In this document: positions 156 to 60,116 of the stretch, one piece after another
Numbering within the stretch: position 1 is the stretch's first letter
How the letters are laid out: every line of letters begins with the position of its first letter
NCBI RefSeq assembly: GCF_027579695.1
Contig: NC_083579.1
Span: 71,533,371 to 71,597,370 of the forward strand
Length of the DNA: 64,000 nt
DNA from: Neoarius graeffei
Lineage: Eukaryota; Chordata; Actinopteri; Siluriformes; Ariidae
Direction of reading: 5' to 3'
The notes under the pieces: generated by a model
The model's input: the letters and a program-made list of their open reading frames with translations, nothing else
What the model was told of the DNA's origin: nothing
Databases searched by the model: none
Program-made: the position numbers and the translations under genes

Positions 156-601
156 ATGATCATGATGCATTTGCAATTAACCCTGTTTATTCTGACAGTA
201 AACTGGTTTTCATGTATATGTAAGCTAAGAATCTGATTAATTCATCTTTATTGAGAACTTTTACAACAGCAATGTCAAACTCATTACATTTTTTAAAAAT
301 ATGCACAGGTATGCAGGTCATACAGGTCCATCAGGACACAAAGGACCTGGTTCTGTCCAAAGGATCATCGTTGAATATCTCCTGCTCTATAACTGGCATG
401 AGTAATCCAGACCTGTTCTGGTACCGCTGGAATGAAACAGCAGGGTTTACGCTGGTCTTCACCTCTCGAGGTGCTTTAATGATGGACCCAGTCAGTGAAG
501 GCCAGTTTAAATCAAGCAGACCTACAGACCTTCAGATGTTTCTGGAGTCTGATGGAGTGAGTGAGATCGGTTCTACAGTGTGGTACTGTGCAGCCAGACC
601 C
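156..601 (+). CDS. V1: antigen-receptor V segment (TRBV-like), intact
   Basis: Two exons: leader 156-219 and V exon 309-601, split after the first base of a codon, with donor GTAAGC and acceptor CACAG. The leader is hydrophobic (begins MIMMHLQLTLFILTVNW). The V domain has the first Cys in SCSIT, the core Trp in FWYRWNETAG and the second Cys in VWYCAARP, directly before a 23-RSS. CDR1 reads about TGMSNPD and CDR2 about SRGALMMDP. Subfamily B1, with V4 and V6 (VHQDTKDLVLSKG start). The product would be the membrane-distal V domain of a T-cell receptor chain after joining. Chain type is inferred from the CAA(S/R) end and the 23-RSS; gamma or another TCR chain is not excluded. Confidence 0.82.
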
Positions 602-640
602 CACAGCATCACAGTGTCATCACAGAGCTGTACAAAAACT
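602..640 (+). other. 23-RSS of V1
   Basis: Heptamer CACAGCA (602-608), 23-bp spacer, nonamer ACAAAAACT (632-640). A second, consensus heptamer CACAGTG starts 8 bp after the first one. Confidence 0.85.
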
Positions 641-1463
641 ACTAGAATTAGGACTCGTTTCAATTAATCACTTTTGCGAGCATTTTTCTTTGGCACCTTA
701 ACTGAGAAAAACATGACTGTTTTGAGAAACAGTGAGAAAGTGTAGGCTGAAGTTTCAAACTCAAAGATTCAACAGGAAGAAGGCAAACACAAAAGGAGAT
801 TCTCATGATGGTGGTGTTCGCTATCTGACAGTTTGTGTTTCCAAGTTACATAACAGTTCATTTTGCAAGTGAGATCAATTACATTAATCAATCTCAATTT
901 CATTCCGAAATTATTTCTCAGCCAAACAATTGCAATGAATTACATTATCCTGTTATACGATTAATCCCTGATGTGAGTGATGACAGTCAGAACTGTTGGG
1001 ACCAGCAGTGAACTTTTCACTCTTGAGAAAGACAGGGTCAAGGATTTGAGATCATTGCCCAGTTAAGATCAAAGTTTGAAGTACTGCCCCGTTTAGCTGT
1101 CCTCACAACATTTAATGAGGTTGCATTAAAGAAACTTGGCCTTTTTTGAATTTTTCATTCTTTGGTCAACAAACCAGTTTGATGTGAATCTGGAGGAGTG
1201 CTATGGATTATCATCCAACAATGGTACGGTTTAATCCTTCTGGCAAAGGGTGCAAGGCTTTACTCTAAAATATCCTGATTTCCATGATAACGAGTCATTA
1301 CGATGTTTCCAGGAACTCTTAAAGACCAAATGCTCTGATGTGTGATCTTATTTGCAATCCTCCTCCCCTGGTGCAGGTTGATGTAGTACAGGGTTCCACC
1401 CCATCACCAGTAACAGTCTATTTCAGCACGCAGCCAGTGCTACTGTATGTTACACTCTTTAAT
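641..1463 (+). other. V1-V2 intergenic, no gene seen
   Basis: AT-rich spacer without a credible gene. The first part (to about 950) matches the flank after V4. The last part resembles other V upstream regions, including a variant promoter box at 1391-1404. Confidence 0.6.
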
Positions 1464-1879
1464 ATGAAGCGTTTGTGTTTGATTCTGTGCACTCTGACAG
1501 TACAATGGCTTTTCACTGCATGTACGATTATCATATCATAAATTACATTTAGCTGTGAAATGATTTCATAGCGAATCTGAAATAATTCTTTGACACTATT
1601 GCAGGTCTGCAGCTTATACAAGTCCATCAAGAATCAGAGGACCTGGTTCTTTCACCTGGATCATCGCTGAAGATTTCCTGCTCTATAACTGGGACTAATA
1701 ACCCATATCTTTACTGGTACAGCTGGAATGAAACAGCAGGGTTCACACTGGTTTTCACTTCTCTGGGTACGAGGCTGATGAACCCGTCCAGTTACGGTCA
1801 GTTTAAGTCTAACAGACCTACAGACCTTCAGATCATTCTGGAGTCTGATGGAGTGAGTACAAAAACCACAAGTCATTAG
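1464..1879 (+). pseudogene. V2: truncated V segment pseudogene
   Basis: The leader exon 1464-1521 (MKRLCLILCTLTVQWLFTA, donor GTACGA) and the V exon from 1605 are open and carry the first Cys and core Trp (LYWYSWNETAG). The V exon stops being V-like at ESDGVS: the next about 70 bp, including WYC, the heptamer and most of the spacer, are missing, and the sequence joins straight to the nonamer ACAAAAACC. The frame then ends at TAG (1877-1879). With no second Cys and no heptamer it cannot give a normal receptor. The Gypsy element lies 33 bp downstream. The framework groups it loosely with subfamily A (V3, V5, V7, V8). Confidence 0.8.
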
Positions 1880-1912
1880 GATTGGGCTTCTCGAATCGAT
1901 AGTTTTGTATAT

Positions 1913-2228
1913 TGTGGCAGCGGGGGCGTGGTCAAGCACCGGTCTGTGACAGGAGGGCGGAGTCAGGGAAGGTAAGTGGCAGATTCACTTCACCTGAGAG
2001 CAATTAACCTGTGTTTGTGTGTCTTCCCAGGGACCGCGCCCTATTTAGGGAGGGAGAGCGAGAGCAGAGGAGATCTCTCCCGAACCAGACACCTGATGTG
2101 TGTGTGTGCGCGTGTGTCTGCGTTAAACCTATTGTGTTCCCTGAAAAGTGGAACAATAAAACTGTTTGTTGAACCTGATCTCTGTCCTGCCGTCCTCTGT
2201 GCTCCACCCACACCTAGGGAAAGCTACA
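1913..2228 (+). repeat. 5' LTR of the Gmr1-like element
   Basis: About 316 bp, TG...CA ends, with a TATA-like CCCTATTTAGGG region and an AATAAA signal. Related LTRs form the ends of the inverted units at 15272-15804 and 56254-57483. Confidence 0.8.
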
Positions 2229-2248
2229 GTGGTGCCGAAACCCGGGAA

Positions 2249-5200
2249 ATGGAGCACCAACCCAGCAGCCCCATGGAATCCTCCCCGTTCACCGACCTGG
2301 TCCACGCCCTCGCCACGGCTCAGCAAAGCCAGCACCAGGCGCTCGTCACACTCCGAAAGGAACAAGAGTGGCGCTTCGATGCCCTGGTGCTGGCCCAGCA
2401 AGAAGATCGCAAGGCGTTCCGGCGTCTCCTCGCGTCGGCGGGGCCCACCAGCGCTCCGGCCGCGGGCCCGTCTCCCCTCACCTTAACTAAGATGGGCCCG
2501 CAGGATGACCCCGAGGCTTTCTTCACATTATTCGAGCAGGTCTCTGAAGCCTCGGGGTGGCCGATGGAGCAGCGCGCGGCGCGCCTCCTCCCCCTCCTGA
2601 CGGGAGAGGCGCAGCTGGCTGCACTACAGCTCCCCGCCGATCGCCGGCTGGCCTACGCCGACCTTCGCCGGGCTGTCCTTCAGCGCGTGGGGCGCACGCC
2701 GGAGCAGCAGCGCCAGCGCTTCCGCGCGCTGCGGATGGAGGAAGTCGGCAGCCCGTTCGCGTTCGGCCAGCAGCTCCGGGACGCCTGCTGGCGGTGGCTG
2801 AGGGCCGAAGATCACGACGCCGAGGGAATCGTCGATCAGGTGGTACTGGAACAGTTCATCGCCCGCTTACCAGCAGGAGCCGCGGAGTGGGTCCAGTGCC
2901 ACCGCCCGGCGTCGCTGGATCAGGCAGTCGAGCTGGCGGAGGATCATCTGGCGGCTGTCTCGGCGGCAGGACAGCAGATGTCGACATCTCTTCTCTCCTC
3001 TTCTCTTTCTCTCTCTCTCTCCCCTCCTTCTGTGTCCCGTCCTCGCCCCATTCCCCCACCGCGGAGGCGGGGGCCGGCACCACCCCTGCCGGCCTGCCGC
3101 ACCCGCGGTGCCCTCCCGTTTCTCCCTTCTGTGTCTGTCTCTCCCCCACCTCAGGTGAGTGAGCCCCAGAGCACCGGTGCAGAGGGGAAGCCCGGGCCGG
3201 TTTGCTGGCGCTGCGGGGAACCGGACCACCTTCAACAGCAGTGCACAGCAATGGAAGTGGGCGCGGTGGTTCGGATCCCCGACGCGCCAGAGGCCGCCCT
3301 CGATCGGGCCGGAGCGTATCGCATACCGGTGAGTATCCAAGGGGCTACATATCAGGCATTGGTGGATTCTGGTTGTAATCAGACCTCAATTCGCCAAAGC
3401 CTGGTTCAAAACGAGGCATTGGGGGGAGCACAAGGGGTGAAGGTTTTGTGTGTGCACGGGGATGTTCACAGCTACCCTTTGGTGTCGGTCCATATTATTT
3501 TCAGAGGGGAAAAATTTATAGTGAAGGCGGCGGTTAATCCTCGCCTTACCCACTCGTTAATTTTGGGGACTGATTGGTTGGGATTTCGGGGTTTAATGAT
3601 GCGCCTAGTAGAGAGTGGGTCCTGCCAGTTGACAGGGGGAGGTCCCGGTGTCGTTTTGGCGGGAGCAGCTGTCGCGGAGCCGTCTACGTCATCTCCGCGT
3701 CAGGGTGAGGAGCCACCGGCTCCTCCTCTCTCTATTGGGGAATCCCTCGCGGATTTCCCATTAGAGCAGTCGCGAGACGAGACTCTGCGGCATGCGTTTG
3801 ACCAAGTGAGAGTAATCGATGGTCAAACGCTCCCGCCGAACGCCACCCCGTCCTTCCCCTACTTCGCGATTATGAAGGATAGGTTATACCGAGTGACGCA
3901 GGACACTCAAACTAAAGAGCGAGTCACGCAGCTTTTGATTCCAAAGAGCCGCCGGGAATTGGTATTCCAGGCGGCTCACTTTAATCCCATGGCTGGACAC
4001 TTAGGGCAGGATAAAACACTAGCCCGAATAATGGCCCGATTCTATTGGCCGGGGATTCGCGGCGATGTCCGTAGGTGGTGTACGGCATGCCGCGAATGCC
4101 AGTTAGTAAATCCAGCGGCCATTCCAAAAGCGCCATTGCGCCCTCTACCGTTAATCGAGACCCCGTTTGAAAGAATTGGGATGGATCTCGTCGGGCCATT
4201 AGATCGGTCAGCACGAGGGTACCGCTTTATATTAGTTCTAGTGGACTATGCAACGCGATACCCGGAAGCAGTGCCTCTGCGCAATATCTCAGCACGCAGT
4301 ATTGCAGAGGCACTCTTCCGCGTCATCTCCCGAGTTGGAATCCCGAAAGAGATTCTGACTGATCAAGGCACTACGTTTATGTCACGAACACTACGCAAAC
4401 TGTATGGGTTATTGGGGATTAAGCCGATCCGCACCAGTGTATATCACCCACAAACGGACGGTTTAGTAGAACGGTTCAACCGCACCCTCAAAAATATCAT
4501 TAAAAAATTCGTAAGTGAGGACGCACGTAATTGGGATAAGTGGCTCGAACCCTTGCTGTTCTCAGTGCGAGAGGTCCCTCAAGCCTCCACGGGGTTCTCC
4601 CCGTTCGAATTATTATATGGGCGTAAGCCGCGCGGCATCCTGGACGTGCTGCGGGAAAATTGGGAGGAGGGACCTTCACAAAGTAAGAATGAAATTCAGT
4701 ACGTTATGGACCTGCGCGCAAAACTCCACACGCTCACCCACCTAACTCAGGAGAATTTGCGGCAGGCCCAGGAACGGCAAGCCCGCCTGTACAACAAGGG
4801 TACGCGCCTTAGAGAGTTCACACCGGGAGATAAAGTACTCGTACTCTTGCCCACGTCGAACTCCAAATTAATCGCCAAGTGGCAAGGACCCTTTGAGGTC
4901 ACACGGCGAGTCGGGGACGTCGACTATGAGGTGAGGCGAACAGACAGGGGTGGGGCGCTACAGATTTACCACCTCAATCTGCTCAAACTCTGGAACGAGG
5001 AGGTCCCCGTGGCGTTGGTGTCGGTAGTTCCGGAGAAGGCGGAGCTGGGGCCGGAGGTTCAAAAAGGGAATTTGGCATCACGTACCTCTCCGGTCCCCTG
5101 TGGAGACCACCTCTCCCCGACCCAACTCACGGAGGTCGCCCAGTTGCAGGCCGAGTTTTCGGATGTGTTCTCGCCCCTGCCCGGTCGCACTAACCTCATA

Positions 5201-6493: not shown

Positions 6494-6635
6494 CCAGACA
6501 CCTGATGTGTGTGTGTGCGTGTGTCTGCGTTAAACCTATTGTGTTCCCTGAAAAGTGGAACAATAAAACTGTTTGTTGAACCTGATCTCTGTCCTGCCGT
6601 CCTCTGTGCTCCACCCACACCTAGGGAAAGCTACA
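6492..6635 (+). repeat. 3' end repeat of the Gmr1-like element
   Basis: Matches the 3' part of the 5' LTR almost base for base, including AATAAA and the AGCTACA end, and is followed by the target duplication. Confidence 0.75.
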
Positions 6636-7451: not shown

Positions 7452-7903
7452 ATGAGGTGTTTGTGGTTGATTCTCTGCATTCTGACAGGACAATGGCTAC
7501 TGACTTCATGTAAGCTTATAATGTTGTCAATACTGCATTATTTAAAGCAGCTTTAGAACAACTCCAATAATTTCAAATAATCTTTCAAATAATACATTTC
7601 ATCATCGCAGGTCTGCAGGTCATACAGGTCCATCAGAACCCAGAGAACCTGATTCTATCTCCTGGATCATCACTGAGCATCTCCTGCTCTATAACTGGCA
7701 CTGATAATCCGTATCTTTACTGGTACCACTGGAATGAAACAGCAGGGTTCACACTGGTCTTTACTTCTGGAACTACTGGTTCAGTGAATCCTACCAGTGA
7801 GGGTCAGTTTAAAGCTCACAGACCAAAAGACCTTCAGATCATTCTGGAGTCTGATGGAGTGAGTGAGATCGGCTCTGCAGTGTGGTACTGTGCAGCCAGA
7901 CCC
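7452..7903 (+). CDS. V3: V segment, subfamily A, intact
   Basis: Leader exon 7452-7509 (MRCLWLILCILTGQWLLTS, donor GTAAGC) and V exon 7611-7903 after acceptor CGCAG. The mature part starts LQVIQVHQNPENLILSPG, with Cys in ISCSIT, Trp in LYWYHWNETAG and Cys in VWYCAARP. CDR1 is TGTDNPY, CDR2 about SGTTGSVNP and the FR3 variable site RPKDLQ. Subfamily A differs from B by its leader and by SPGSSLSIS in FR1. No defect is visible. Confidence 0.83.
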
Positions 7904-7942
7904 CACAGCATCACAGTGTCATCACAGAGCTGTACAAAAACC
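7904..7942 (+). other. 23-RSS of V3
   Basis: Heptamer CACAGCA (7904-7910), 23-bp spacer, nonamer ACAAAAACC (7934-7942). Confidence 0.85.
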
Positions 7943-8460: not shown

Positions 8461-8904
8461 ATGATCATGATGCGTTTGTAATTAACCCTGTTTATTGACA
8501 GTAAACTGGTTTTCATGTACATGTAAGCTAAGATTCTGATTAATTCATCTTTATTGAGAACTTTTACAACAGCAATGTCAAGCTCATTACATTTTTTTTA
8601 AATATGCACAGGTATGCAGGTCATACAGGTCCATCAGGACACAAAAGACCTGGTTCTGTCCAAAGGATCATCGTTGAAGAGCTCCTGCTCTATAACTGGC
8701 ACGAGTAGTCCAGACCTGTACTGGTACCACTGGAATGAAACAGCAGGGTTCACACTGGTCTTCACCTCTCAACGTGCTTTAATGATGGACCCAGCTAGCG
8801 AAGGCCAGTTTAAATCGAACAGACCTACAGACCTTCAGATGTTTCTGGAGTCTGATGGAGTGAGTGAGATCGGTTCTACAGTGTGGTACTGTGCAGCCAG
8901 ACCC
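8461..8904 (+). pseudogene. V4: V segment with broken leader
   Basis: The V exon 8612-8904 is intact (CDR1 TGTSSPD, CDR2 SQRALMMDP, VWYCAARP) and has a good RSS. The leader exon 8461-8522 is damaged: its seventh codon is TAA, and a 2-bp loss in the TTTATTCTGACAG stretch shifts the frame (62 bp instead of 64). V1 and V6 show the undamaged form. The V exon carries its own Met codon two bases after the splice site, but that would give no signal peptide. Probably a non-functional member of subfamily B1, still able to recombine. Confidence 0.75.
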
Positions 8905-8943
8905 CACAGCATCACAGTGTCATCACAGAGCTGTACAAAAACT
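8905..8943 (+). other. 23-RSS of V4
   Basis: CACAGCA (8905-8911), 23-bp spacer, ACAAAAACT (8935-8943). Confidence 0.83.
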
Positions 8944-9900: not shown

Positions 9901-9902
9901 TA

Positions 9903-11593: not shown

Positions 11594-12046
11594 ATGAGGT
11601 GTTTGTGGTTGATTCTCTGCATTCTGACAGGACAATGGCTACTGACTTCATGTAAGCTTATAATGTCGTCAATACTGCATTATTTAAAGCAGCTTTAGAA
11701 TAACTCCAATAATTTCAAATAATCTTTCAAATAATACATTTTCATCATCGCAGGTCTGCAGGTCATACAGGCCCATCAGAACCCAGAGAACCTGATTGTT
11801 TCTCCTGGATCATCACTGAGCATCTCCTGCTCTATAACTGGCACTGATAATCCATATATTTACTGGTACCACTGGAATGAAACAGCAGGGTTCACACTGG
11901 TCTTTACTTCTTTGAGTACTGATTCAGTGACTCCTGCCAGTGAGGGTCAGTTTAAAGCTCACAGACCAAATTGGCTTCAGATCATTCTGGAGTCTGATGG
12001 AGTGAGTGAGATCGGCTCTGCAGTGTGGTACTGTGCAGCCAGACTC
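11594..12046 (+). pseudogene. V5: V segment with degenerate RSS
   Basis: Leader exon 11594-11651 and V exon 11754-12046 are open and normal (subfamily A; CDR1 TGTDNPY, CDR2 SLSTDSVTP, RPNWLQ, VWYCAARL). The signal after it is damaged: the heptamer reads TACAGCA, so the critical first C is lost, and the two other heptamer-like motifs seen in sister copies are altered too. Coding is intact, but RAG cutting should be very weak or absent, so it is an ORF-type segment rather than a full pseudogene. Confidence 0.72.
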
Positions 12047-12085
12047 TACAGCATCCTAGTGGCATTACAGAGCTGTACAAAAACC
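12047..12085 (+). other. Degenerate 23-RSS of V5
   Basis: TACAGCA (12047-12053), 23-bp spacer, intact nonamer ACAAAAACC (12077-12085). The first heptamer base is the one most needed for cleavage. Confidence 0.75.
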
Positions 12086-12600: not shown

Positions 12601-13047
12601 ATGATTATGATGCATTTGCAATTAACCCTGTTTATTCTGACAGTAAACTGGTTTTCATGTATATGTAAGCTAAGAATCTAATTAATTCATCATTATTGAG
12701 AACTTTGACAAGAGCAATGTCAAGCTCATTAAATTTTTTTTTTAATATGCACAGGTATGCAGGTCATACAGGTCCTTCAGGACACAAAGGACCTGGTTCT
12801 GTCCAAAGGATCATCGTTGAAGATCTACTGCTCTATAAATGGCACGAGTAATCCAGACCTGTTCTGATACCGCTGGAATGAAACAGCAGGGCTTACGCTG
12901 GTCTTCACCTCTCAAGGTGCTTTAATGATGGACCCAGTCAGTAAAGGCCAGTTTAAATCGAACAGACCTACAGACTTTCAGATGTTTCTGGAGTCTGATG
13001 GAGTGAGTGAGATCGGTTCTACAGTGTGGTACTGTGCAGCCAGACCC
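12601..13047 (+). pseudogene. V6: V pseudogene, stop at the core Trp
   Basis: The leader 12601-12664 is intact (MIMMHLQLTLF start). The V exon 12755-13047 belongs to subfamily B1 and is otherwise V1-like (NGTSNPD, RPTDFQ), but the codon for the core framework-2 Trp is TGA (12865-12867; sister copies have TGG). The RSS is intact, so a rearranged V6 would always be non-productive. Confidence 0.85.
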
Positions 13048-13086
13048 CACAGCATCACAGTGTCATCACAGAGCTGTACAAAAACC
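13048..13086 (+). other. 23-RSS of V6
   Basis: CACAGCA (13048-13054), 23-bp spacer, ACAAAAACC (13078-13086). Confidence 0.83.
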
Positions 13087-14664: not shown

Positions 14665-15117
14665 ATGAGGTGTTTGTGTTTGATTCTCTGCATTCTGACA
14701 GGACAATGGCTACTGACTTCATGTAAGCTTATAATGTTATCAATACTGCATTATTTAAAGCAGCTTTAGAACAACTCCAATAATTTCAAATAATCTTTCA
14801 AATAATACATTTTCATCATCGCAGGTCTGCAGGTCATACAGGTCCATCAGAACCCAGAGAACCTGATTCTTTCTCCTGGATCATCACTGAGCATCTCCTG
14901 CTCTATAACTGGTACGAACAACCCGTATCTTTACTGGTACCACTGGAATGAAACAGCAGGATTCACATTGATCTTCACCTCTCGAATTACTGGTTCAGTG
15001 AATCCAGCCAGTGAGGGTCAGTTTAAATCTCACAGACCTAAAGACCTTCAGATCATTCTGGAGTCTGATGGAGTGAGTGAGATCGGCTCTGCAGCGTGGT
15101 ACTGTGCAGCCAGACCC
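14665..15117 (+). CDS. V7: V segment, subfamily A, intact
   Basis: Leader exon 14665-14722 (MRCLCLILCILTGQWLLTS, donor GTAAGC) and V exon 14825-15117. CDR1 is TGTNNPY, CDR2 SRITGSVNP and the FR3 site RPKDLQ. Before the second Cys it reads SAAWYC, where all sister copies have AVWYC or TVWYC; the change is conservative and the frame is open. FTLIFTS replaces FTLVFTS. Confidence 0.8.
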
Positions 15118-15156
15118 CACAGCATCACAGTGTCATCACAGAGCTGTACAAAAACC
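15118..15156 (+). other. 23-RSS of V7
   Basis: CACAGCA (15118-15124), 23-bp spacer, ACAAAAACC (15148-15156). Confidence 0.83.
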
Positions 15157-22411: not shown

Positions 22412-22862
22412 ATGAGGTGTTTGTGTTTGATTCTCTGCATTCTGACAGGACAATGGCTACTGACTTCATGTAAGCTTATAATGTTGTCAATATTGCATTA
22501 TTTAAAGCAGCTTCAAAACAACTACAATAATTTCAAATCTTTTAAATAATAAATTTATCATCATCGCAGGTCTGCAGGTCATACAGGTCCATCAGAACCC
22601 AGAGAACCTGATTCTTTCTCCTCGATCATCACTGAGCATCTCCTGCTCTATAACTGGCACAACAAATCCATATCTTTACTGGTACCACTGGAATGAGACA
22701 GCAGGGTTCACACTGGTCTTTACCTCTCTAGGTACGGGTTCAATGAATCCTAACAGTGAGGGTCAGTTTAAAGCTCACAGACCAAAAGACCTTCAGATCA
22801 TTCTGGAGTCTGATGAAGTGAGTGAGATCGGCTCTGCAGTGTGGTACTGTGCAGCCAGTCCC
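22412..22862 (+). CDS. V8: V segment, subfamily A, intact
   Basis: Leader exon 22412-22469 (MRCLCLILCILTGQWLLTS) and V exon 22570-22862 are open. CDR1 is TGTTNPY, CDR2 SLGTGSMNP, the FR3 site RPKDLQ, and the end VWYCAASP. Two departures from the family are SPRSSLS (Gly to Arg in FR1) and ESDEVSEIG (Gly to Glu). It is the last subfamily A member; from V9 on, all are B2. About 5.4 kb of inserted DNA separates its promoter region from the older array to the left. Confidence 0.8.
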
Positions 22863-22901
22863 CACAGCATCACAGTTTCATCACAGAGCTGTACAAAAAC
22901 C
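22863..22901 (+). other. 23-RSS of V8
   Basis: CACAGCA (22863-22869), 23-bp spacer, ACAAAAACC (22893-22901). The internal CACAGTG of sister copies reads CACAGTT here. Confidence 0.83.
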
Positions 22902-25124: not shown

Positions 25125-25568
25125 ATGATCTTGATGCATTTGCATTTAGCTCTTTTTATTCTGACAGTACACTGGCTTTCAACTATATGTAAGCTAATAG
25201 TGTGATTAATTCAGCATTACTGAGAACTTTTAGAACAGCAATATCAAACTAATTACATTTTTTTTGGATTCACAGCCATGCAGCTCATACAGGTCCAACA
25301 GGACACAAAGGACCTGATTCTGTCCAAAGGATCAAAGCTGAAGGTCACCTGCTCTATAACTGGCATAAGTAGTCCAAACCTGTACTGGTACTACTGGAAT
25401 GAAACAGCAGGGTTCACACTGGTCTTCACCTCTACAGCTACTAATTCAGTGAATCCTACCAATTATGGTCAGTTTAAATCTCACAGACCTGAACAGCTTC
25501 AGATCATTCTGGAGTCTGATGGAGTGAGTGAGATCGGATCTGCAGTGTGGTACTGTGCAGCCAGTCCC
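25125..25568 (+). CDS. V9: V segment, subfamily B2, intact
   Basis: Leader exon 25125-25188 (MILMHLHLALFILTVHWLST) and V exon 25276-25568 after acceptor CACAG; the junction codon gives Ser. CDR1 is TGISSPN, FR2 reads WYYWNETAG, CDR2 STATNSVNP, and it has NYGQF where others have SEGQF. The FR3 site is RPEQLQ and the end VWYCAASP. First of the B2 group (MQ(L/V)IQVQQD start). The Tc1 insertion leaves its promoter box (25045-25058) untouched but removes more distal sequence. Confidence 0.82.
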
Positions 25569-25607
25569 CACAGCATCACAGTGTCATCACAGAGCTGTAC
25601 AAAAACC
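25569..25607 (+). other. 23-RSS of V9
   Basis: CACAGCA (25569-25575), 23-bp spacer, ACAAAAACC (25599-25607). Confidence 0.85.
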
Positions 25608-27823: not shown

Positions 27824-28253
27824 ATGATGCATTTGCATTTAGCTCTTTTTATTCTGATAGTACACTGGCTTTCAACTATATGTAAGCTAATAATGTGATT
27901 AATGCAGCATTACTGAGAACAACAATATCAAGCTAATTACATTTTTTTTTGTATCCACAGGTATGCAGCTCATACAGGTTCAACAGGACCCAAGGGACCT
28001 GGTTCTGTCCAAAGGATCATCGCTGAAGGTCACCTGCTCTATAACTGCCACAAGTATTCCAACCCTGTACTGGTACCACTGGAATGAAACAACAGGGTTC
28101 ACACTGGTCTTCATCTCTACAGCTACTGGTTCAGTGAATCCTGCCAGTGAGGGTCAGTTTAAATCTCACAGACCTGAACAGCTTCAGATCATTCTGGAGT
28201 CTGATGGAGTGAGTGAGATCGGATCTGCAGTGTGGTACTGTGCAGCCAGTCCC
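27824..28253 (+). CDS. V10: V segment, subfamily B2, intact
   Basis: The first two leader codons of other copies read ATA ATC here, so the start moves to the third (ATG at 27824); leader exon 27824-27881, V exon 27961-28253. CDR1 is TATSIPT, CDR2 STATGSVNP and the FR3 site RPEQLQ. The FR2 sequon is kept (WNETTGF). No stop or splice defect is visible. Confidence 0.82.
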
Positions 28254-28292
28254 CACAGCATCACAGTGTCATCACAGAGCTGTACAAAAACC
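28254..28292 (+). other. 23-RSS of V10
   Basis: CACAGCA (28254-28260), 23-bp spacer, ACAAAAACC (28284-28292). Confidence 0.85.
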
Positions 28293-33306: not shown

Positions 33307-33749
33307 ATGATCATGATGCATTTGCATTTAGCTCTTTTTATTCTGATAGTACACTGGCTTTCAACTATCTGTAAGCTAACAATGTGATTAATTCAGCATT
33401 ACTGAGGACTTTTAGAACAGCAATATCAAGTTAATGACCTTTTTTTGTATCCACAGGTATGCAGCTCATACAGGTCCAACAGGACCCAAGGGACCTGGTT
33501 CTGTCCAAAGGATCAAAGCTGAAGGTCACCTGCTCTATAACCGGCATGAGTAATCCAGACCTGTACTGGTACCACTGGAATGAAACAGCAGGTTTCACAC
33601 TGGTCTTCACCTCTCGAGCCACTGGTTCAGTGAATCCTGCCAGTGAGGGTCAGTTTAAATCTCAGAGACCAAAAGACCTTCAGATCATTCTGGAGTCTGA
33701 TGGAGTGAGTGAGATCGGATCTGCAGTGTGGTACTGTGCAGCCAGTCCC
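33307..33749 (+). CDS. V11: V segment, subfamily B2, intact
   Basis: Leader exon 33307-33370 (ends TCAACTATCT, donor GTAAGC) and V exon 33457-33749. CDR1 TGMSNPD is the same as in V1 of subfamily B1, although the rest is B2. CDR2 SRATGSVNP and FR3 KSQRPKDLQ are shared with V12. The end is VWYCAASP. Such mixing points to sequence exchange between copies. Confidence 0.84.
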
Positions 33750-33788
33750 CACAGCATCACAGTGTCATCACAGAGCTGTACAAAAACC
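33750..33788 (+). other. 23-RSS of V11
   Basis: CACAGCA (33750-33756), 23-bp spacer, ACAAAAACC (33780-33788). Confidence 0.85.
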
Positions 33789-36257: not shown

Positions 36258-36701
36258 ATGATCATGATGCATTTGCATTTAGCTCTTTTTATTCTGACAG
36301 TAAACTGGCTTTCAACTATATGTAAGCTAACAATGTGATTAATTCAGCATTACTGAGAACTTTTAGAACAGCAATATCAAACTAATTAAATTTCTTTTTT
36401 TTTCACAGTCATGCAGCTCATACAGGTTCAACAGGACCCAAGGGACCTGGTTCTGTCCAAAGGATCACCGCTGAAGGTCACCTGCTCTATAACCGGCACG
36501 AGTACTCCAATGCTGTACTGGTACCACTGGAATGAAACAGCAGGTTTCACACTGGTCTTCACCTCTCGAGCCACTGGTTCAGTGAATCCTGCCAGTGAGG
36601 GTCAGTTTAAATCTCAGAGACCAAAAGACCTTCAGATCATTCTGGAGTCTGATGGAGTGAGTGAGATCGGATCTGCAGTGTGGTACTGTGCAGCCAGACC
36701 C
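36258..36701 (+). CDS. V12: V segment, subfamily B2, intact
   Basis: Leader exon 36258-36321 and V exon 36409-36701; the acceptor form CACAG|TC gives Phe at the junction. CDR1 is TGTSTPM, CDR2 SRATGSVNP, FR3 KSQRPKDLQ, and the end VWYCAARP (most B2 copies have CAASP). FR1 has SKGSPLKVTC. Past the RSS the frame stays open to codon 137 in the genomic DNA. Confidence 0.84.
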
Positions 36702-36740
36702 CACAGCATCACAGTGTCATCACAGAGCTGTACAAAAACC
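36702..36740 (+). other. 23-RSS of V12
   Basis: CACAGCA (36702-36708), 23-bp spacer, ACAAAAACC (36732-36740). Confidence 0.85.
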
Positions 36741-38784: not shown

Positions 38785-39228
38785 ATGATCATGATGCATT
38801 TGCATTTAGCTCTTTTTATTCTGACAGTACACTGGCTTTCAACTATCTATAAGCTAACAATGTGATTAATTCAGCATTACTGAGAACTTTTAGAACAGCG
38901 ATATCAAACTAATTACATTTTTTTTTTATTCACAGTCATGCAGGTCATACAGGTCCAACAGGACCCAAGGGACTTGGTTCTGTCCAAAGGATCATCGATG
39001 AAGGTCACCTGCTCTATAACTGCTACAGGTACTCCAAACCTGTACTGGTACCACTGGAATGAAACAGCAGGTTTCACACTGGTCTTCACCTCTCGAGCTA
39101 CTGGTTCAGTGAATCCTGCCAGTGAGGGTCAGTTTAAATCTCACAGACCTGAACAGCTTCAGATCATTCTGGAGTCTGATGGAGTGAGTGAGATCGGATC
39201 TGCAGTGTGGTACTGTGCAGCCAGTCCC
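38785..39228 (+). pseudogene. V13: V segment with mutated splice donor
   Basis: The leader (38785-38848) and V exon (38936-39228) are both open: CDR1 TATGTPN, CDR2 SRATGSVNP, FR3 site RPEQLQ, VWYCAASP. The donor after the leader reads ATAAGC (38849-38854), where V11 and V18, with the same exon end, have GTAAGC. Without a GT the leader should not splice normally, so V13 is probably not expressed even though it can still recombine. Confidence 0.7.
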
Positions 39229-39267
39229 CACAGCATCACAGTGTCATCACAGAGCTGTACAAAAACC
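39229..39267 (+). other. 23-RSS of V13
   Basis: CACAGCA (39229-39235), 23-bp spacer, ACAAAAACC (39259-39267). Confidence 0.85.
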
Positions 39268-40842: not shown

Positions 40843-41285
40843 ATGATGCATTTGCATTTAGCTCTTTTTATTCTGATAGTACACTGGCTTTCAACTATAT
40901 GTAAGCTAACAATGTGATTAATTCAGCATTACTGAGGACTTTTAGAACAGCGATATCAAGCTAATTACTTAGACATTTTTTTGTATCCACAGGTATGCAG
41001 CTCATACAGGTCCAACAGGACCCAAGGGACCTGGTTCTGTCCAAAGGATCATCGATGAAGGTCACCTGCTCTATAACTGCTACAGGTATTCCAAACCTGT
41101 ACTGGTACCACTGGAATGAAACAGCAGGTTTCACACTGGTCTTCACCTCTCGAGCTACTGGTTCAGTGAATCCTGCCAGTGAGGGTCAGTTTAAATCTCA
41201 CAGACCTGAAAAGCTTCAGATCATTCTGGAGTCTGATGGAGTGAGTGAGATCGGATCTGCAGTGTGGTACTGTGCAGCCAGTCCC
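40843..41285 (+). CDS. V14: V segment, subfamily B2, intact
   Basis: The start is the ATG at 40843, since the earlier Met codon reads ATA; leader 40843-40900, V exon 40993-41285. CDR1 is TATGIPN, CDR2 SRATGSVNP and the FR3 site RPEKLQ. Nearly the same as V16, 4,430 bp downstream, which differs mainly in CDR2 (SLATGS) and the FR3 site (RPEQLQ). Confidence 0.84.
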
Positions 41286-41324
41286 CACAGCATCACAGTG
41301 TCATCACAGAGCTGTACAAAAACC
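41286..41324 (+). other. 23-RSS of V14
   Basis: CACAGCA (41286-41292), 23-bp spacer, ACAAAAACC (41316-41324). Confidence 0.85.
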
Positions 41325-42896: not shown

Positions 42897-43340
42897 ATGA
42901 TCATGATGCATTTGCATTTAGCTCTTTTTATTCTGACAATAAACTGGCTTTCAACTATATGTAAGCTAACAATGTGATTAATTCAGCATTACTGAGAACT
43001 TTTAGAACAGCAATATCAAACTAATTACATATTTTTTTGATTCACAGTCATGCAGGTCATACAGGTTCAACAGGACCCAAGGGACCTGGTTCTGTCCAAA
43101 GGATCATCGCTGAAGGTCACCTGCTCTATAACCGGCACGAGTACTCCAACGCTGTACTGGTACCACTGGAATGAAACAGCAGGGTTCACACTGGTCTTCA
43201 TCTCGGTAACTACTGGTTCAGTGAATCCTGCCAGTGAGGGTCAGTTTAAATCTCACAGACCTGAACAGCTTCAGATCATTCTGGAGTCTGATGGAGTGAG
43301 TGAGATCGGATCTACAGTGTGGTACTGTGCAGCCAGTCCC
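42897..43340 (+). CDS. V15: V segment, subfamily B2, intact
   Basis: Leader exon 42897-42960 (with ILTINWLST, where others have ILTVHW) and V exon 43048-43340. CDR1 is TGTSTPT, CDR2 SVTTGSVNP, the FR3 site RPEQLQ, and the end STVWYCAASP, a B1-like Thr in a B2 copy. V17 is its partner in the next repeat unit, 4,428 bp downstream. Confidence 0.84.
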
Positions 43341-43379
43341 CACAGCATCACAGTGTCATCACAGAGCTGTACAAAAACC
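43341..43379 (+). other. 23-RSS of V15
   Basis: CACAGCA (43341-43347), 23-bp spacer, ACAAAAACC (43371-43379). Confidence 0.85.
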
Positions 43380-44840: not shown

Positions 44841-45272
44841 ACAGTTATTGTAAGTTATATCTTTTTCTTTTTTCCCCCAAAATTATATTTGCATTTCAGT
44901 TGAATTTTGTTAGCTGCTATATCACATTAAAGGTGAAAAATAATCTGATATGATTGATGTTGGTTTCATTTTTTACATCATCAAAAGCTGCAAAATTAAT
45001 AGATGTGTGTCGACTTTGATATTCACTGTAGTGACATGGAGAGAGAGAGAGAGTGAGTGTATGTGTTCTATGGGTGATAATATCCTATCATGACTTCCAG
45101 ACACTTTGAAACGAGAGAAAAGCATCACCTGAGATAAACCCCAGCGTATGTAATTCTCCAGCTGTGACGCAGGGTGAACTCGCACAGGGTCCCACCCCAT
45201 TGCTCAGTAACAGCCTGTTTCAGTACAGAGCCCGAGTTACTACAACTGCTACTGCATGTTGTCCTAATAATC

Positions 45273-45715
45273 ATGATGCATTTGCATTTAGCTCTTTTTA
45301 TTCTGATAGTACACTGGCTTTCAACTATATGTAAGCTAACAATGTGATTAATTCAGCATTACTGAGGACTTTTAGAACAGCGATATCAAGCTAATTACTT
45401 AGACATTTTTTTGTATCCACAGGTATGCAGCTCATACAGGTCCAACAGGACCCAAGGGACCTGGTTCTGTCCAAAGGATCATCGATGAAGGTCACCTGCT
45501 CTATAACTGCTACAGGTATTCCAAACCTGTACTGGTACCACTGGAATGAAACAGCAGGTTTCACACTGGTCTTCACCTCTCTAGCTACTGGTTCAGTGAA
45601 TCCTGCCAGTGAGGGTCAGTTTAAATCTCACAGACCTGAACAGCTTCAGATCATTCTGGAGTCTGATGGAGTGAGTGAGATCGGATCTGCAGTGTGGTAC
45701 TGTGCAGCCAGTCCC
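45273..45715 (+). CDS. V16: V segment, subfamily B2, intact
   Basis: Leader exon 45273-45330 (start shifted to the third codon, as in V10, V14 and V18) and V exon 45423-45715. CDR1 is TATGIPN, CDR2 SLATGSVNP and the FR3 site RPEQLQ. Opens the second 4.4-kb module [V16-S-V17-T]. Confidence 0.84.
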
Positions 45716-45754
45716 CACAGCATCACAGTGTCATCACAGAGCTGTACAAAAACC
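45716..45754 (+). other. 23-RSS of V16
   Basis: CACAGCA (45716-45722), 23-bp spacer, ACAAAAACC (45746-45754). Confidence 0.85.
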
Positions 45755-45779
45755 ACAACATCTTCTTAAGCTTGGGTTT

Positions 45780-47210: not shown

Positions 47211-47321
47211 TTCCAGCTGTGACGCAGGGTGAACTCGCACAGGGTCCCACCCCATTGCTCAGTAACAGCCTGTTTCAGCACAGAGCTCGAGTTACTACAA
47301 CTGCTACTGCATGTTGTCCTA

Positions 47322-47768
47322 ATGATCATGATGCATTTGCATTTAGCTCTTTTTATTCTGACAATAAACTGGCTTTCAACTATATGTAAGCTAACAATGT
47401 GATTAATTCAGCATTACTGAGAACTTTTAGAACAGCGATATCAAACTAATTACATATTTTTTTTTTTATTCACAGTCATGCAGCTCATACAGGTTCAACA
47501 GGACCCGAGGGACCTGGTTCTGTCCAAAGGATCATCGATGAAGGTCACCTGCTCTATAACCGGCACGAGTACTCCAATGCTGTACTGGTACCACTGGAAT
47601 GAAACAGCAGGGTTCACACTGGTCTTCATCTCGGTAACTACTGGTTCAGTGAATCCTGCCAGTGAGGGTCAGTTTAAATCTCACAGACCTGATTGGCTTC
47701 AGATCATTCTGGAATCTGATGGAGTGAGTGAGATCGGATCTGCAGTGTGGTACTGTGCAGCCAGTCCC
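47322..47768 (+). CDS. V17: V segment, subfamily B2, intact
   Basis: Leader exon 47322-47385 and V exon 47476-47768. CDR1 TGTSTPM is that of V12, CDR2 SVTTGSVNP is that of V15, and the FR3 site RPDWLQ is that of V19 and V20, so each variable block matches a different neighbour. No defect is visible. Confidence 0.84.
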
Positions 47769-47807
47769 CACAGCATCACAGTGTCATCACAGAGCTGTAC
47801 AAAAACC
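47769..47807 (+). other. 23-RSS of V17
   Basis: CACAGCA (47769-47775), 23-bp spacer, ACAAAAACC (47799-47807). Confidence 0.85.
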
Positions 47808-48061
47808 ACAACATCTTCTTCAGCCTGGGTTTTATGCTCAAATATACAATTTTATCCTCCATTTTACTTTGGTTATCAGCACATGGCCTGAACTGATAGA
47901 AGCCTGACTGATCTCTGAAGTTAAAATTCCACAAGTTTGTCCTTGGCTATAAATGGCTAAGAATTTTTTTTCTTCTGTCAAGCACATAAAACAAACAATC
48001 CCCAGCAGAATTACTTGCTTGTTCAATAAAACAATAATAAATAATATTTGCGTTATTGTTT

Positions 48062-49862: not shown

Positions 49863-50301
49863 ATGATGCATTTGCATTTAGCTCTTTTTATTCTGATAGT
49901 ACACTGGCTTTCAACTATCTGTAAGCTAACAATGTGATTAATTCAGCATTACTGAGAACTTTTAGAACAGCGATATCAAACTAATTACATTTTTTTTTTT
50001 ATTCACAGTCATGCAGGTCATACAGGTTCAACAGGACCCAAGGGACCTGGTTCTGTCCAAAGGATCATCGATGAAGGTCACCTGCTCTATAACTGCCACA
50101 GGTACTCCAAACCTGTACTGGTACCACTGGAATGAAACAGCAGGTTTCACACTGGTCTTCACCTCTCTAACTACTGGTTCAGTGAATCCTTCCAGTGAGG
50201 GTCAGTTTAAATCTCACAGACCTGAAAAGCTTCAGATCATTCTGGAGTCTGATGGAGTGAGTGAGATCGGATCTGCAGTGTGGTACTGTGCAGCCAGTCC
50301 C
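49863..50301 (+). CDS. V18: V segment, subfamily B2, intact
   Basis: Leader exon 49863-49920 (ends TCAACTATCT with a proper GTAAGC donor, unlike V13) and V exon 50009-50301. CDR1 TATGTPN is shared with V13. CDR2 is SLTTGSVNPSS and the FR3 site RPEKLQ is shared with V14. Opens the third module [V18-S-V19]. Confidence 0.84.
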
Positions 50302-50340
50302 CACAGCATCACAGTGTCATCACAGAGCTGTACAAAAACC
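50302..50340 (+). other. 23-RSS of V18
   Basis: CACAGCA (50302-50308), 23-bp spacer, ACAAAAACC (50332-50340). Confidence 0.85.
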
Positions 50341-51910: not shown

Positions 51911-52357
51911 ATGATCATGATGCATTTGCATTTAGCTCTTTTTATTCTGATAGTACACTGGCTTTCAACTATATGTAAGCTAACAATGTGATTAATTCGG
52001 CATTACTGAGAACTTTTACAACAGCAATATCAAGCTAATTACCTTTTTTTTTTTCTATCCACAGGTATGCAGCTCATACAGGTCCAACAGGACAAACGGG
52101 ACCTGGTTCTGTCCAAAAGATCATCGCTGAAGATCACCTGCTCTATAACCGGCACTACTAACCCATATCTTTACTGGTACCATTGGAATGAAACATCAGG
52201 GTTCACACTGGTCTTCACCTCTACATTTACTGGTTCAGTGACTCCTGCCAGTGAGGGTCAGTTTAAATCTCACAGACCTGATTGGCTTCAGATCATTCTG
52301 GAGTCTGATGGAGTGAGTGAGATCGGATCTGCAGTGTGGTACTGTGCAGCCAGTCCC
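51911..52357 (+). CDS. V19: V segment, subfamily B2, intact, divergent
   Basis: Leader exon 51911-51974 and V exon 52065-52357. FR1 QQDKRDLVLSKRSSLKITC has Lys and Arg changes. CDR1 TGTTNPY is that of subfamily A copy V8. CDR2 is STFTGSVTP, and FR2 reads WNETSGF. The FR3 site is RPDWLQ. The most diverged intact B2 copy, with A-like CDR1. Confidence 0.83.
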
Positions 52358-52396
52358 CACAGCATCACAGTGTCATCACAGAGCTGTACAAAAACC
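52358..52396 (+). other. 23-RSS of V19
   Basis: CACAGCA (52358-52364), 23-bp spacer, ACAAAAACC (52388-52396). Confidence 0.85.
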
Positions 52397-56158: not shown

Positions 56159-56174
56159 GAATGGTATGTCCTTC

Positions 56175-57812
56175 ACTACACTGGCTTTCAACTATATGTA
56201 AGCTAACAATGTGATTCATTCAGCATTACTGAGGACTTTTAGAACAGCAATATTATGGCAGCGGGGTCGTGGTCAAGCGTCGGTCTGTGACCGGAGGGTG
56301 GAGTCAGGGAAGGTAAGTGGCAGAATCACTGCACCTGATGTTAATTAATGTGTTTGTGTGTCTTCCCCAGTGACCGCACCTTATTTAAGGAGAGAGAGCG
56401 GAGAGGCAAGAAGAGGTTGTCTGCTGTCCTACCATCGGGACAGCCGCCAAATGGTCCTCCACCAGCTCGATTGCCTGATCCAGTGACGCCGGGCGGTGGC
56501 ACTGGATCCACTCTGCGGTTCCTGCTGGTAAGCGCGCGATGAACTGCTCCAGTACTGCCTGGTCGATGATTCCCTTGGTGTCGCGGTTGTCGGCCCTCAA
56601 TCACCGCCAGCAGGCGTCCCGGAGTTGCTGGCCAAACGCGAACGGCCGGCCGACTTCCTCCAAGCGCAAAGCGCGGAAGTGCTGTCGTTGTTGCTCGGGG
56701 GTGCGCCCCACACGCTGGAGGACAGCCCGGCAAAGGTCCGCGTAGGCCGGTCAGCGGGGAGCTGTAGCGCAGCCAGCTGCGCCTCTCCCGTTAGAAGGGG
56801 GAGGAGGCGCGCTGCGTGCTGTTCCACCGGCCACCCCGAGGTCTCTGCTACCTGCTCAAAGAGCGTGAGAAAGGCCTCGGGGTCGTCCTGCGGGCCCATC
56901 TTCATTAGGGTGAGGTGTGAAGGGCCCGCGGCAGTGGAGTTGGTGGACCCCGCCGACGCGAGGAGGTACTGGAACGGCTGTCAATCTTCCTGCTGAGCCA
57001 ACACCAGGGCCTCGAACTGTTGTTCCTGCTCCTTCCGGAAGGCGACTAGCGCCTGGTGCTGGCTTTGCTGGGCCGTGGCAAGTGCGTGGACCAGGTCGGC
57101 GAAAGGGGAGGACTCCATAGGGCTGTTCTGCTTCTGCGCTCCAAGCTCCCGGGTTTCGGCACCACTGTGGCAGTTCGTATGAATGGGCGGAGCACAGAAG
57201 ACGGCAGGACAGAGCTAAGGTTGGTAAACCTTTTTATTTTCAATGCTTTTCAGTGGTCTCTCACTTAATAACACACAGATGCACGCACACACAACCGGCG
57301 TCTGGTTCGGGGGAGAGCTCCCTCTGCTCTCTCTCTCTCTCTCTCTCCTTAAATAGGGCGCGGTCACTGGGGAAGACACACAAACACATTAATTAACATC
57401 AGGTGCAGTGATTCTGCCACTTACCTTCCCTGACTCTGCCCTCCAGTCACAGACCGCCGCTTGACCACGCCCCCGCTGCCACAGATATCAAGTTAATTAC
57501 CTTTTTTTTTTGTATCCACAGGTATGCAGCTCATACAGGTCCAACAGGACCCAAGGGACCTGGTTCTGTCCAAAGGCTCATCGCTGAAGGTCACCTGCTC
57601 GATAACCAGCACGAGTAATCCAAACCTATACTGGTACCACTGGAATGAAACAGCAGGGTTCACACTGGTCTTCACCTCAAGCCACTGGTTCAGTGAATCC
57701 TGCCAGTGAGGGTCAGTTTAAATCTCACAGACCTGATTGGCTTCAGATCATTCTGGAGTCTGATGGAGTGAGTGAGATCGGATCTGCAGTGTGGTACTGT
57801 GCAGCCAGTCCC
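56175..57812 (+). pseudogene. V20: V pseudogene with several hits
   Basis: Only the end of the leader remains (CACTGGCTTTCAACTATAT then GTAAGC, about 56179-56202); its start and promoter are gone at the hAT-like insertion. An inverted-LTR unit sits in the intron, 33 bp before the V exon. The V exon 57522-57812 has CDR1 TSTSNPN but loses 2 bp in CDR2 (CACCTCAAGCC where others have CACCTCTCGAGCC), which shifts the frame to a stop. The FR3 site is RPDWLQ, read in the other frame. The RSS spacer is also 2 bp short. Confidence 0.85.
56254..57483 (-). mobile_element. Inverted-LTR unit 2 (Gmr1-like fossil)
   Basis: On the minus strand: an LTR (about 57483-57170), a piece of the 5' internal region and gag (about 57170-56400), then an inverted U3 segment (about 56400-56254). 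The ends are inverted (TATGGCAGC / GCTGCCACA), and the target duplication is AATAT/GATAT. It is a broken, coding-dead fossil with several breaks and the same plan as unit 1 at 15272-15804. Confidence 0.78.
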
Positions 57813-57849
57813 CACAGCATCAGTGTCATCACAGAGCTGTACAAAAACC
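57813..57849 (+). other. RSS of V20, 21-bp spacer
   Basis: CACAGCA (57813-57819), a spacer of only 21 bp, ACAAAAACC (57841-57849). Off the 23-bp rule by 2, so cutting should be reduced. Confidence 0.78.
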
Positions 57850-58271
57850 ACATCTTCTTAAGCTTGGGTTTTATGCTCAAATACACAGTATTGTATACCT
57901 TTTTTAAATTGCTCATCAGTACAATACTTTAACTGATAGAGGTTTTATAGATCTATAAAGTCACATGTTTGCTTTATTGAAATATTCAAAAGTTAGTGTC
58001 ATCTGCATTTTTCCCAATTTATCTTTTTTCATTCTTTCTTAAAGTTTCTTCAATAATTGCTTGTCCAATAAAGCAATAAGGAAAATGTACACAATATTTG
58101 TATTGTTGTTTAAAGTATCATACACGCTGTCAAGCACGAGATTATTTCAGAGAAACTCTTTAAGCAAGAAAATGATTGAAAGCAGGCCTTCAGATTCATC
58201 AACCACAGAATCACACCGTTAAGTAAAACCAGAGTGCATCATTGTGGGGAAAGTCCTATACACTGCGTAGA

Positions 58272-59440
58272 ATGGATATAAAAAGTTTACACACCCCCTG
58301 TTAAAATTGGAGGGTTTTTTTAATGTAAAGAAATCATGTCAGATCTTTTTCTACCTTAAATGTGATATAGAAATCAACAAAATTCAAGTACAAAAAAAAA
58401 AAAAAAGTTTTAGGAGGAAAAAATATACAATAACCTGGATGCATAAGTGTGCGCACCTTTTTCTAATGGGACATGCGACTGTCCTCAGAATTCACCAATC
58501 ACATTCAAACTCATGTTCAAAAGTAATTATCATCAACCTGTGATCAGTGAAGTGATTCTGATGAACTCCAGATCAAGATCAGCTGTTTCTGTAAGATTTT
58601 CTTGACATATTCTTTGTTTCATTTGTCACATTATCAAGAACAGGACCTCCCTCTGAAATTGATGAAAAGACAAGAGCTTGGCAATGTTAAAAGAGGTGCA
58701 GGAATATATTGCTAGTACTTCTCTATCTCTTCATGTGAGAACGATCTCATATATTCTTCACATATCTAGGCTATGGAGTAGGGTGGCTCGACTGACGCTG
58801 TTTCTCACAATAAAGGAAAGCACCCAAGCCTGCCTAAATCACCCAAAGCCATATGGCAAAATGTGCTATGGTCTGATTTTTTTTTGGGGGGGGAGGGACA
58901 AAACACACAAGACAACTCATCACCCAAAGGACACCATTTCCATGGTGAAGCATGGTGGTGGTAGCATCATGCTGTGGGGCTGCTTCACTTCAGCTGAGAT
59001 TGGGACTTTAATCAACAGACAGGAATCATGGTTTGCTTCAAATACCAATCTGTCTTGGCAAAACAAAACAGGCAGCCTCTGTTAGAGAGCTGAAGATGAA
59101 ACAAATCCATTTACCAGCATGATATCGACCCAAGCATGAATCGAAGTCAGCAAAGGAATGGCTTCAAAAGAAGATGATCAACATTTTGGAATGTTCCAGT
59201 CAGATCCCTGATCAAAATCCAATCGATAACATGTCGAAGGACTTGAAGAAGGCTGGGCACACGAGATCTTCTCACACTTTGATACATATGGAGCATTTTT
59301 GCAAGGAAGAGTGAAATAAATTTGCCAAATCATGATGATTAAGTTGGTAGACTCTTAACCAAACAAGGCAGAGTGCTGTATTGTAAGCTAAAGGTGCTTT
59401 AACCAAGTATTACTTCAGGGGTGTGCACACTTATGCAAAA
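58272..59440 (+). mobile_element. Old Tc1 relic after V20
   Basis: Same relic family as after V9, with part of the 5' coding region missing and a T9-G8 tract near 58878. Confidence 0.72.
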
Positions 59441-59871
59441 CAGTTATTAAAATTTTTTTCTTTTTCTTTTTTTTCCAAAAAAATTCTATTTGTATTTCAG
59501 TTGAATTTTGTTAGCTGCTATATCACATTAAAGGTGAAAAATAATCTGATATGATTTAAGTTGGTTTCATTTTTTACATCATGAAAAGCTGCAAATTTAA
59601 TAGATGTGTGTCGACTTTTATATTCTGTAGTGACATGGGGAGAGAGAGAGAGAGAGAGAGAGTGTGTGTGTTCCATGGGTGATAATATCCTGTCATGACT
59701 TCCAGACACTTTGAAACGAGAGAAAAACATCACCTGAGATAAACCCCAGCGTATGTAATTCTCCAGCTGTGACGCAGGGTGAACTCGCACAGGGTCCCAC
59801 CCCATTGCTCAGTAACAGCCTGTTTCAGCACAGAGCCTGAGTTACTACAACTGCTACTGCATGTTGTCCTA

Positions 59872-59935
59872 ATGATCATGGTGCATTTGCATTTAGCTCT
59901 TTTTATTCTGATAGTACACTGGCTTTCAACTATAT
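59872..59935 (+). pseudogene. V21: orphan leader exon
   Basis: A normal B2 leader (MIMVHLHLALFILIVHWLST, donor GTAAGC) with its promoter box at 59792-59805. The intron runs only to about 59988, where a truncated SINE begins, and after that comes Tc1 relic. No V exon or RSS follows in the window, so the V exon was deleted. It is the last V trace to the right. Confidence 0.8.
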
Positions 59936-59988
59936 GTAAGCTAACAGTGTGATTAATTCAGCATTACTGAGAACTTTTAGAACAGCAA

Positions 59989-60116
59989 TCTCATCTCATT
60001 ATCTGTAGCCGCTTTATCCTGTTCTACAGGGTCGCAGGCAAGCTGGAGCCTATCCCAGCTGACTACGGGCAAAAGGCGGGGTACACCCTGGACAAGTCAC
60101 CAGGTCATCACAGGGC
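59989..60116 (-). repeat. tRNA-derived SINE, copy 7, 3' part
   Basis: Minus strand, starting TCTCATCTCATTATCTGTAG. The head is missing and the sequence passes directly into Tc1 relic, so this marks a deletion junction. Confidence 0.78.

Follow-up and report, generated by a model that had tools for sequence, protein, structure and literature searches.

An array of inverted TRBV segments 3' of TRBC in the T cell receptor beta locus of Neoarius graeffei

Our analysis of a 64,000-nucleotide stretch of the Neoarius graeffei genome (2.34 Gb; contig NC_083579.1, here C11, positions 71533371-71597370), referred to as the window, identified 20 V exons by tblastn, every one on the + strand. The array to which they belong is very probably a 3' TRBV cluster of the T cell receptor (TCR) beta locus whose transcriptional orientation is inverted, comparable in kind to mammalian TRBV30 (TRBV31 in the mouse). 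An earlier note, made from the letters of the window, had described TCR V segments of a single family in one orientation and had guessed at the beta chain. The description was upheld, and the chain is beta by linkage to TRBD, TRBJ and TRBC. Flanks were read over 60 kb to the left and 200 kb to the right; positions are counted in window coordinates, negative to the left of the window and above 64000 to its right.

The D, J and C segments were found 33-60 kb past the window on the opposite (minus) strand. The flank check suggested in the earlier note, a search for D, J and C with 12-base recombination signal sequences (12-RSS), thus recovered TRBD, J-like segments and TRBC on the same contig. 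On the minus strand the locus consists of conventional TRBV, one TRBD, about 30 TRBJ, TRBC1 and twice J-J-C2, followed by the V segments on the + strand. By this order and these strands, the array forms the portion of TRB located 3' of TRBC and is inverted relative to the D, J and C segments. TRBC was assigned because the exon encodes a C1-set domain and TCR beta chains made up nearly all of the best 60 of 6,022 rows in the PDB search, with a multi-domain IgA heavy chain at the top score. A genome search with the TRBC exon gave 87 rows, in which the three TRBC exons were followed by a next row at E 9e-5; no row fell inside the window. The 34 J-like segments include at least one doubtful case (120840), and 27 of the 34 carry a 12-RSS by a lenient score without shuffled control. 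The TRBD sequence gggacagggggc is identical to the TRBD reported in catfish and zebrafish (PMC8656973). In a search with a conventional TRBV, for which 150 of 1,225 candidates in the genome were scored, 140 of the 150 rows mapped to C11 minus, 71682065-72471466, some of them being pieces of one exon; the other ten were weak and mapped to C29, C21, C8 and C1. When a profile of conventional TRBV was run against PDB, antibodies dominated the output, and this result did not enter the assignment of the chain.

The + strand V segments span -8785 to 89893, about 98 kb, with uniform strand. This region harbors 28 full-length V exons (5 left of the window, 19 inside and 4 to the right) and five fragments (-7543, -5497, -2040, 1601 and a leader-only relic), 33 units altogether. 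Apparently usable are 23 of the 28: 14 in the window, five to the left (-8785, -6766, -4728, -3246, -693) and four to the right (72927, 80998, 83394, 89603). The V exons show a leader exon, a short phase-1 intron and the Cys-Trp-Cys pattern, and 14 of the 20 units in the window combine an in-frame leader, GT donor, acceptor, open V exon and 23-RSS. The remaining six (1601, 8608, 11750, 12751, 38932, 57518) are not intact, and a 21st unit, detected by whole-unit blastn, comprises a leader and partial intron only. Consequently, the 21 units of the earlier note are reached if this relic is counted, and its 14 apparently usable segments were recovered unit by unit; its statement that every unit has leader, intron, V exon and 23-RSS was too strong in view of the six defective units and the relic. 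Four motif matches for J with 12-RSS were obtained in the window, none with a passable RSS. Together with the lack of a TRBC row, this agrees with the earlier statement that no D, J or C segment is located in the 64 kb. Searching the genome with one inverted member (150 of 157 candidates scored) yielded 32 rows. Of these, 31 were on C11 +, 71524585-71623263, and represent 30 exons, one being split over two rows; the 32nd was a weak match to conventional TRBV. Elsewhere in the genome the family was not found at E 0.001.

The RSS of the array is composed of the heptamer CACAGCA, 23 bases and ACAAAAAC[CT], and in all 23 usable segments the 23-RSS departs from one pattern by no more than two changes. 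Exact matches to CACAGC-N24-ACAAAAACY numbered 17 on the + strand of the window and none on the - strand, with none expected from 100 shuffles. A strict scan of the window based on CACAGTG found no array RSS because the heptamer is CACAGCA. CACAGTG was present in 31 of 31 conventional V segments, in a search that itself favours this heptamer. In 16 of the 17 exact matches of the window (e.g. 7904-7942), the spacer itself contains a perfect CACAGTG, 15 bases ahead of the nonamer. In framework region 2 (FR2), the position after WYx is usually Gln in TCR V segments; here it is Trp in 23 of 23 usable segments, and an N-glycosylation motif WNx[ST] is found at this site in all of these except 89603 (22 of 23).

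Because the 23-RSS of an array V segment points to the right, as does the 12-RSS on the 5' side of TRBD, a coding joint between such a V segment and TRBD requires inversion. From the geometry, about 34 kb (nearest V) to 133 kb (farthest V) of DNA lie in between. In thymocytes, RAG would pair the 23-RSS of the V segment with the 12-RSS 5' of TRBD (or of J), and the break would be resolved as an inversion of approximately 34-133 kb. D-J-C would thereby be aligned with V while the intervening DNA stays on the chromosome, and the product would be a V-D-J-C beta chain. Rearrangement of the inverted segments by inversion is thus predicted from the arrangement of the signals.

Sequence comparisons pointed to a kinship with TRBV30. 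The best PDB match of a single inverted member was 5xov/3hg1, which share one V segment; Mel5 (3hg1) has been described as TRAV12/TRBV30 (PMC5887915). With a nine-sequence profile the Mel5 (3hg1) and 5xov beta chains reached 48.4 bits, exceeded in total score by one fused alpha-beta chain through two domains. Next came two further fused chains with 43-44 bits, then engineered chains, among them one under the label Mel5, with 40.5-40.6 bits; clearly different chains with one V domain reached about 38.5 bits. For V 89603 alone, the segment nearest to TRBC, TRBV30 chains were the best one-V-domain match (46.6-46.9 bits), with four multi-domain chains scoring higher. Human TRBV30 was ranked first of 27 references by all 11 inverted members tested out of the 23 usable ones, and TRAV9-2 or TRAV24 was next after TRBV30/31 for most of them. 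In the reciprocal comparison of the 27 human and mouse references with 11 inverted and 27 conventional fish V segments, mouse TRBV31 favoured the inverted set by 33.8 bits and human TRBV30 by 24.2 bits; the next reference did so by 7.1 bits. Within the inverted set, 89603 branches first (support 88/80). Common descent of the inverted array and TRBV30 is likely.

Several points weigh against our interpretation. The letters of the 27 human and mouse references, as well as the labels TRBV30 and TRBV31, are taken by us to be correct. Support for a group of the inverted segments with TRBV30/31 was 84/70 in a tree of 52 rows and, even at 93/89 in 47 rows once five long or unusual rows had been removed, is moderate only. 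Approximately unbiased (AU) tests rejected none of five rival groupings: inverted segments with conventional TRBV (p 0.45), with conventional TRBV plus TRBV20/29 (p 0.39), with other human TRBV (p 0.15) or with TRAV/TRDV1 (p 0.53, the constrained tree exceeding the free one by 0.45 log units), and TRBV30 with other human TRBV (p 0.30). Pfam V-set scored 12.9-23.1 bits in the three members tested, below the 26-bit cut-off, and did not name the chain. Furthermore, CACAGCA differs from CACAGTG at two positions, and the inverted set may recombine less well. Constraint is modest, with a ratio of nonsynonymous to synonymous substitution rates (dN/dS) of 0.71 (framework 0.68) in the largest subgroup of 13 segments. 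Finally, the use of these V segments in beta chains is a prediction from genomic sequence.

The survival of other groupings in the AU tests leaves room for an independent origin, in which a TRBV family of fish became inverted within this lineage and resembles TRBV30 by convergence or chance. The long branch leading to the inverted family (1.77) and the Atlantic cod TRB locus, in which every gene is reported in forward orientation (PMC13149839), would fit such a history. Against it, TRBV30/TRBV31 were singled out by the reciprocal scores, TRBV30 was best among the PDB chains with one V domain, and inverted V segments occupy the same relative place in the published descriptions of catfish (PMC8656973) and many amniotes (PMC11754216). 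An independent origin is thus rather unlikely, yet of the alternatives it keeps the most weight.

The deviating heptamer and the weak constraint in the largest subgroup would also be compatible with a relic cluster within TRB, whose weak CACAGCA and inverted position make poor RAG targets that hardly rearrange, and whose copy number stems from transposon-driven duplication only. In agreement with this, 5 of the 28 full-length V units are broken, five further units are fragments, and transposons and duplicated blocks are present. In contrast, 23 segments retain leader, donor, open frame and 23-RSS, the pooled framework dN/dS is 0.54, and most inverted TRBV genes of the newt are reported as expressed (PMC12698447), which makes this explanation improbable. 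Over the 23 usable segments dN/dS was 0.61 in total and 0.83 in complementarity-determining regions 1 and 2; the two smaller subgroups gave 0.45 (5 segments) and 0.57 (4 segments). These values suggest that the reading frame of the inverted V segments is under some constraint, weak in the largest subgroup.

A block of about 3.6 kb at 40804-44359 is repeated at 45234-48784 with 97.5% identity, and two-V blocks recur elsewhere. Hence, the array probably grew by tandem duplication, with transposon relics carried along. Blocks of one or two V segments would have been copied in this way, starting from a TRBV30-like founder near TRBC. A block upstream of the leader, present at 89603 and missing at -8785, is common to most of 17 aligned units and may hold the promoter. 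The DNA of the window is transposon-rich, as had been noted before. A long terminal repeat (LTR) retrotransposon-like element at 1976-6635 contains a 1,505-aa gag-pol-like frame and 130-nt direct repeats at 99%. A diverged piece of this element (83-84%) lies in reverse at 56397-57125, in the gap that separates the leader of 57518 from its V exon. Directly 3' of TRBV 27957, a reverse transcriptase frame of 654 aa resembling long interspersed nuclear elements was found at 28539-30503.

Collapsed or misoriented repeat copies in the assembly are a very unlikely source of the array. The usable V copies differ, with 71.9-99.3% identity (lower end 78.5% without 89603), the strand is uniform throughout and catfish has the same order (PMC8656973), even though the 6,669-bp J-J-C block present twice may be a haplotype duplicate. 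This block (97372-110707) is arranged in tandem with one mismatch between the copies and was either duplicated very recently or doubled in the assembly. V segments of another chain (TRA, TRD or TRG) or NITR-like germline genes merely lying beside TRB are more improbable still: TRAV9-2/TRAV24 rank second for most queries and the TRAV grouping scores slightly above the free tree, yet complete 23-RSSs come after CAA[SR] and the array lies inside TRB, with TRBC on one side and a papilin-like gene on the other, a position also described in catfish (PMC8656973).

The cluster character of the array agrees with the channel catfish TRB locus, which is described as having nine TRBV and a further remnant oppositely oriented 3' of TRBC2, a papilin flank and two J before C2 (PMC8656973). 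Both loci share the order V-D-J(many)-C1-J2-C2-[inverted V], an identical TRBD and papilin at one end. Judged by the catfish locus description, N. graeffei differs in having 28 full-length inverted V exons (33 units) over about 98 kb instead of nine, a J-J-C2 block present twice and a much longer locus. The papilin gene appears to end just before the array: on the + strand to its left are a Kunitz exon (C11:71479523) and a PLAC exon (C11:71518941), and the name is suggested by these domains and by the catfish flank.

In mammals, a single inverted TRBV follows the last D-J-C cluster (PMC10464911). The array resembles human TRBV30 and mouse TRBV31 in its inverted position 3' of TRBC and has TRBV30 as its best sequence match, in contrast to the single mammalian gene it is multiple, and tree support for one clade is moderate. 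For squamates the 3'-inverted TRBV were reported to form one clade with low bootstrap; one old inversion was proposed, and such genes are said to exist also in salmonids and some amphibians (PMC11754216). The same source lists five in tuatara and one in a skink, compared with 28 full-length exons here, and gives many amniotes the shared place. Three inverted TRBV clusters have been described in the newt; most of their genes are expressed and thus must rearrange by inversion (PMC12698447). Inverted V segments 3' of or among TRBC units are a feature that our array shares with amniotes and the newt (PMC11754216, PMC12698447). For the axolotl, the available text (PMC12529555) does not settle the orientation of TRBV.

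Trout was reported to have 188 TRBV, its TRB2 locus being listed with 130 TRBV genes (PMC10464911), and catfish TRB to have subgroups with 15-16 members (PMC8656973). These counts do not support the earlier view of an expansion on this scale as something unusual among teleost TCR loci. Trout TRB likewise shows large expansions of few TRBV subgroups; there, whole V-D-J-C loci are opposed, whereas here a V-only cluster is located behind TRBC (PMC10464911). Because inverted 3' TRBV have been published in several vertebrates and large teleost TRBV expansions are normal, the array belongs to a known kind, within which it is large, and is no new system. The literature consulted on these loci, which included no survey, gives no larger inverted 3' TRBV cluster, and we claim no record.

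Table 1. Features of the window and of the neighboring TRB locus (window coordinates)
Feature	Position	Strand	Basis
Apparently usable inverted TRBV unit (leader, intron, V exon 305, 23-RSS)	156..640	+	tblastn, unit check, RSS pattern
TRBV pseudogene, 3' portion of FR3 and RSS lost	1601..1858	+	tblastn
Apparently usable inverted TRBV unit (V exon 7607)	7452..7942	+	tblastn, unit check, RSS pattern
TRBV pseudogene, leader with stop codons, V exon and RSS intact	8608..8943	+	unit check, RSS pattern
TRBV unit (V exon 11750), heptamer broken (TACAGCA)	11594..12085	+	unit check
TRBV pseudogene (V exon 12751), stop in FR2	12601..13086	+	tblastn, unit check
Apparently usable inverted TRBV unit (V exon 14821)	14665..15156	+	unit check, RSS pattern
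Apparently usable inverted TRBV unit (V exon 22566)	22412..22901	+	unit check, RSS pattern
Apparently usable inverted TRBV unit (V exon 25272)	25125..25607	+	unit check, RSS pattern
Apparently usable inverted TRBV unit (V exon 27957)	27824..28292	+	unit check, RSS pattern
Apparently usable inverted TRBV unit (V exon 33453)	33307..33788	+	unit check, RSS pattern
Apparently usable inverted TRBV unit (V exon 36405)	36258..36740	+	unit check, RSS pattern
TRBV, leader splice donor GT changed to AT, V exon and RSS intact	38932..39267	+	unit check, RSS pattern
Apparently usable inverted TRBV unit (V exon 40989)	40843..41324	+	unit check, RSS pattern
Apparently usable inverted TRBV unit (V exon 43044)	42897..43379	+	unit check, RSS pattern
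Apparently usable inverted TRBV unit (V exon 45419)	45273..45754	+	unit check, RSS pattern
Apparently usable inverted TRBV unit (V exon 47472)	47322..47807	+	unit check, RSS pattern
Apparently usable inverted TRBV unit (V exon 50005)	49863..50340	+	unit check, RSS pattern
Apparently usable inverted TRBV unit (V exon 52061)	51911..52396	+	unit check, RSS pattern
Leader of frameshifted TRBV 57518, about 1.2 kb apart, split off by insertion	56174..56253	+	blastn
Frameshifted TRBV pseudogene (V exon 57518), RSS spacer shortened	57485..57857	+	tblastn, blastn, unit check
Leader-only TRBV relic, 21st unit	59839..59993	+	blastn
TRBC exon	97959-97663 (C11:71631009)	-	genome search
J pair before TRBC at 97959	101309, 100745	-	
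TRBC exon	104626-104330 (C11:71637676)	-	genome search
J pair before TRBC at 104626	107976, 107412	-	
TRBC exon	112173-111868 (C11:71645235)	-	genome search
30 J-like segments	123801-115647	-	
TRBD, gggacagggggc, 12-RSS on 5' side, 23-RSS on 3' side	124199	-	
Conventional TRBV	from 148515 rightward	-	

Other V-set loci were encountered in the genome. On C22 minus, 6.39-8.96 Mb, 94 of the 150 scored V-set rows were located, and at the locus L001 an IGL-like V lies on the - strand and an IgL-like C exon on the + strand, the two facing opposite ways; this region is probably a very large light-chain cluster array. Repeated sets of other V-set or C1-type rows at C29:49.35-49.87 Mb, C2:102.7-103.9 Mb and C8:7.4-8.9 Mb probably represent further IG/TR or V-set gene families.

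We put forward, as a serious but tentative proposal, that inverted 3' TRBV are ancestral to bony vertebrates, of which mammals kept one gene (TRBV30) while this fish made a second pool of about 23 usable V segments. If this is true, a sizeable share of the beta repertoire would be made by chromosomal inversion, from segments with an RSS type (CACAGCA) and a framework of their own. For the published proposal that the 3'-inverted TRBV go back to one old inversion, the array provides a further case from a fish, accompanied by reciprocal sequence comparisons. The locus would constitute a natural experiment, with two V pools carrying different heptamers, one joined by deletion and the other only by inversion. 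Repertoire sequencing would show the effect of orientation and RSS on beta-chain usage.

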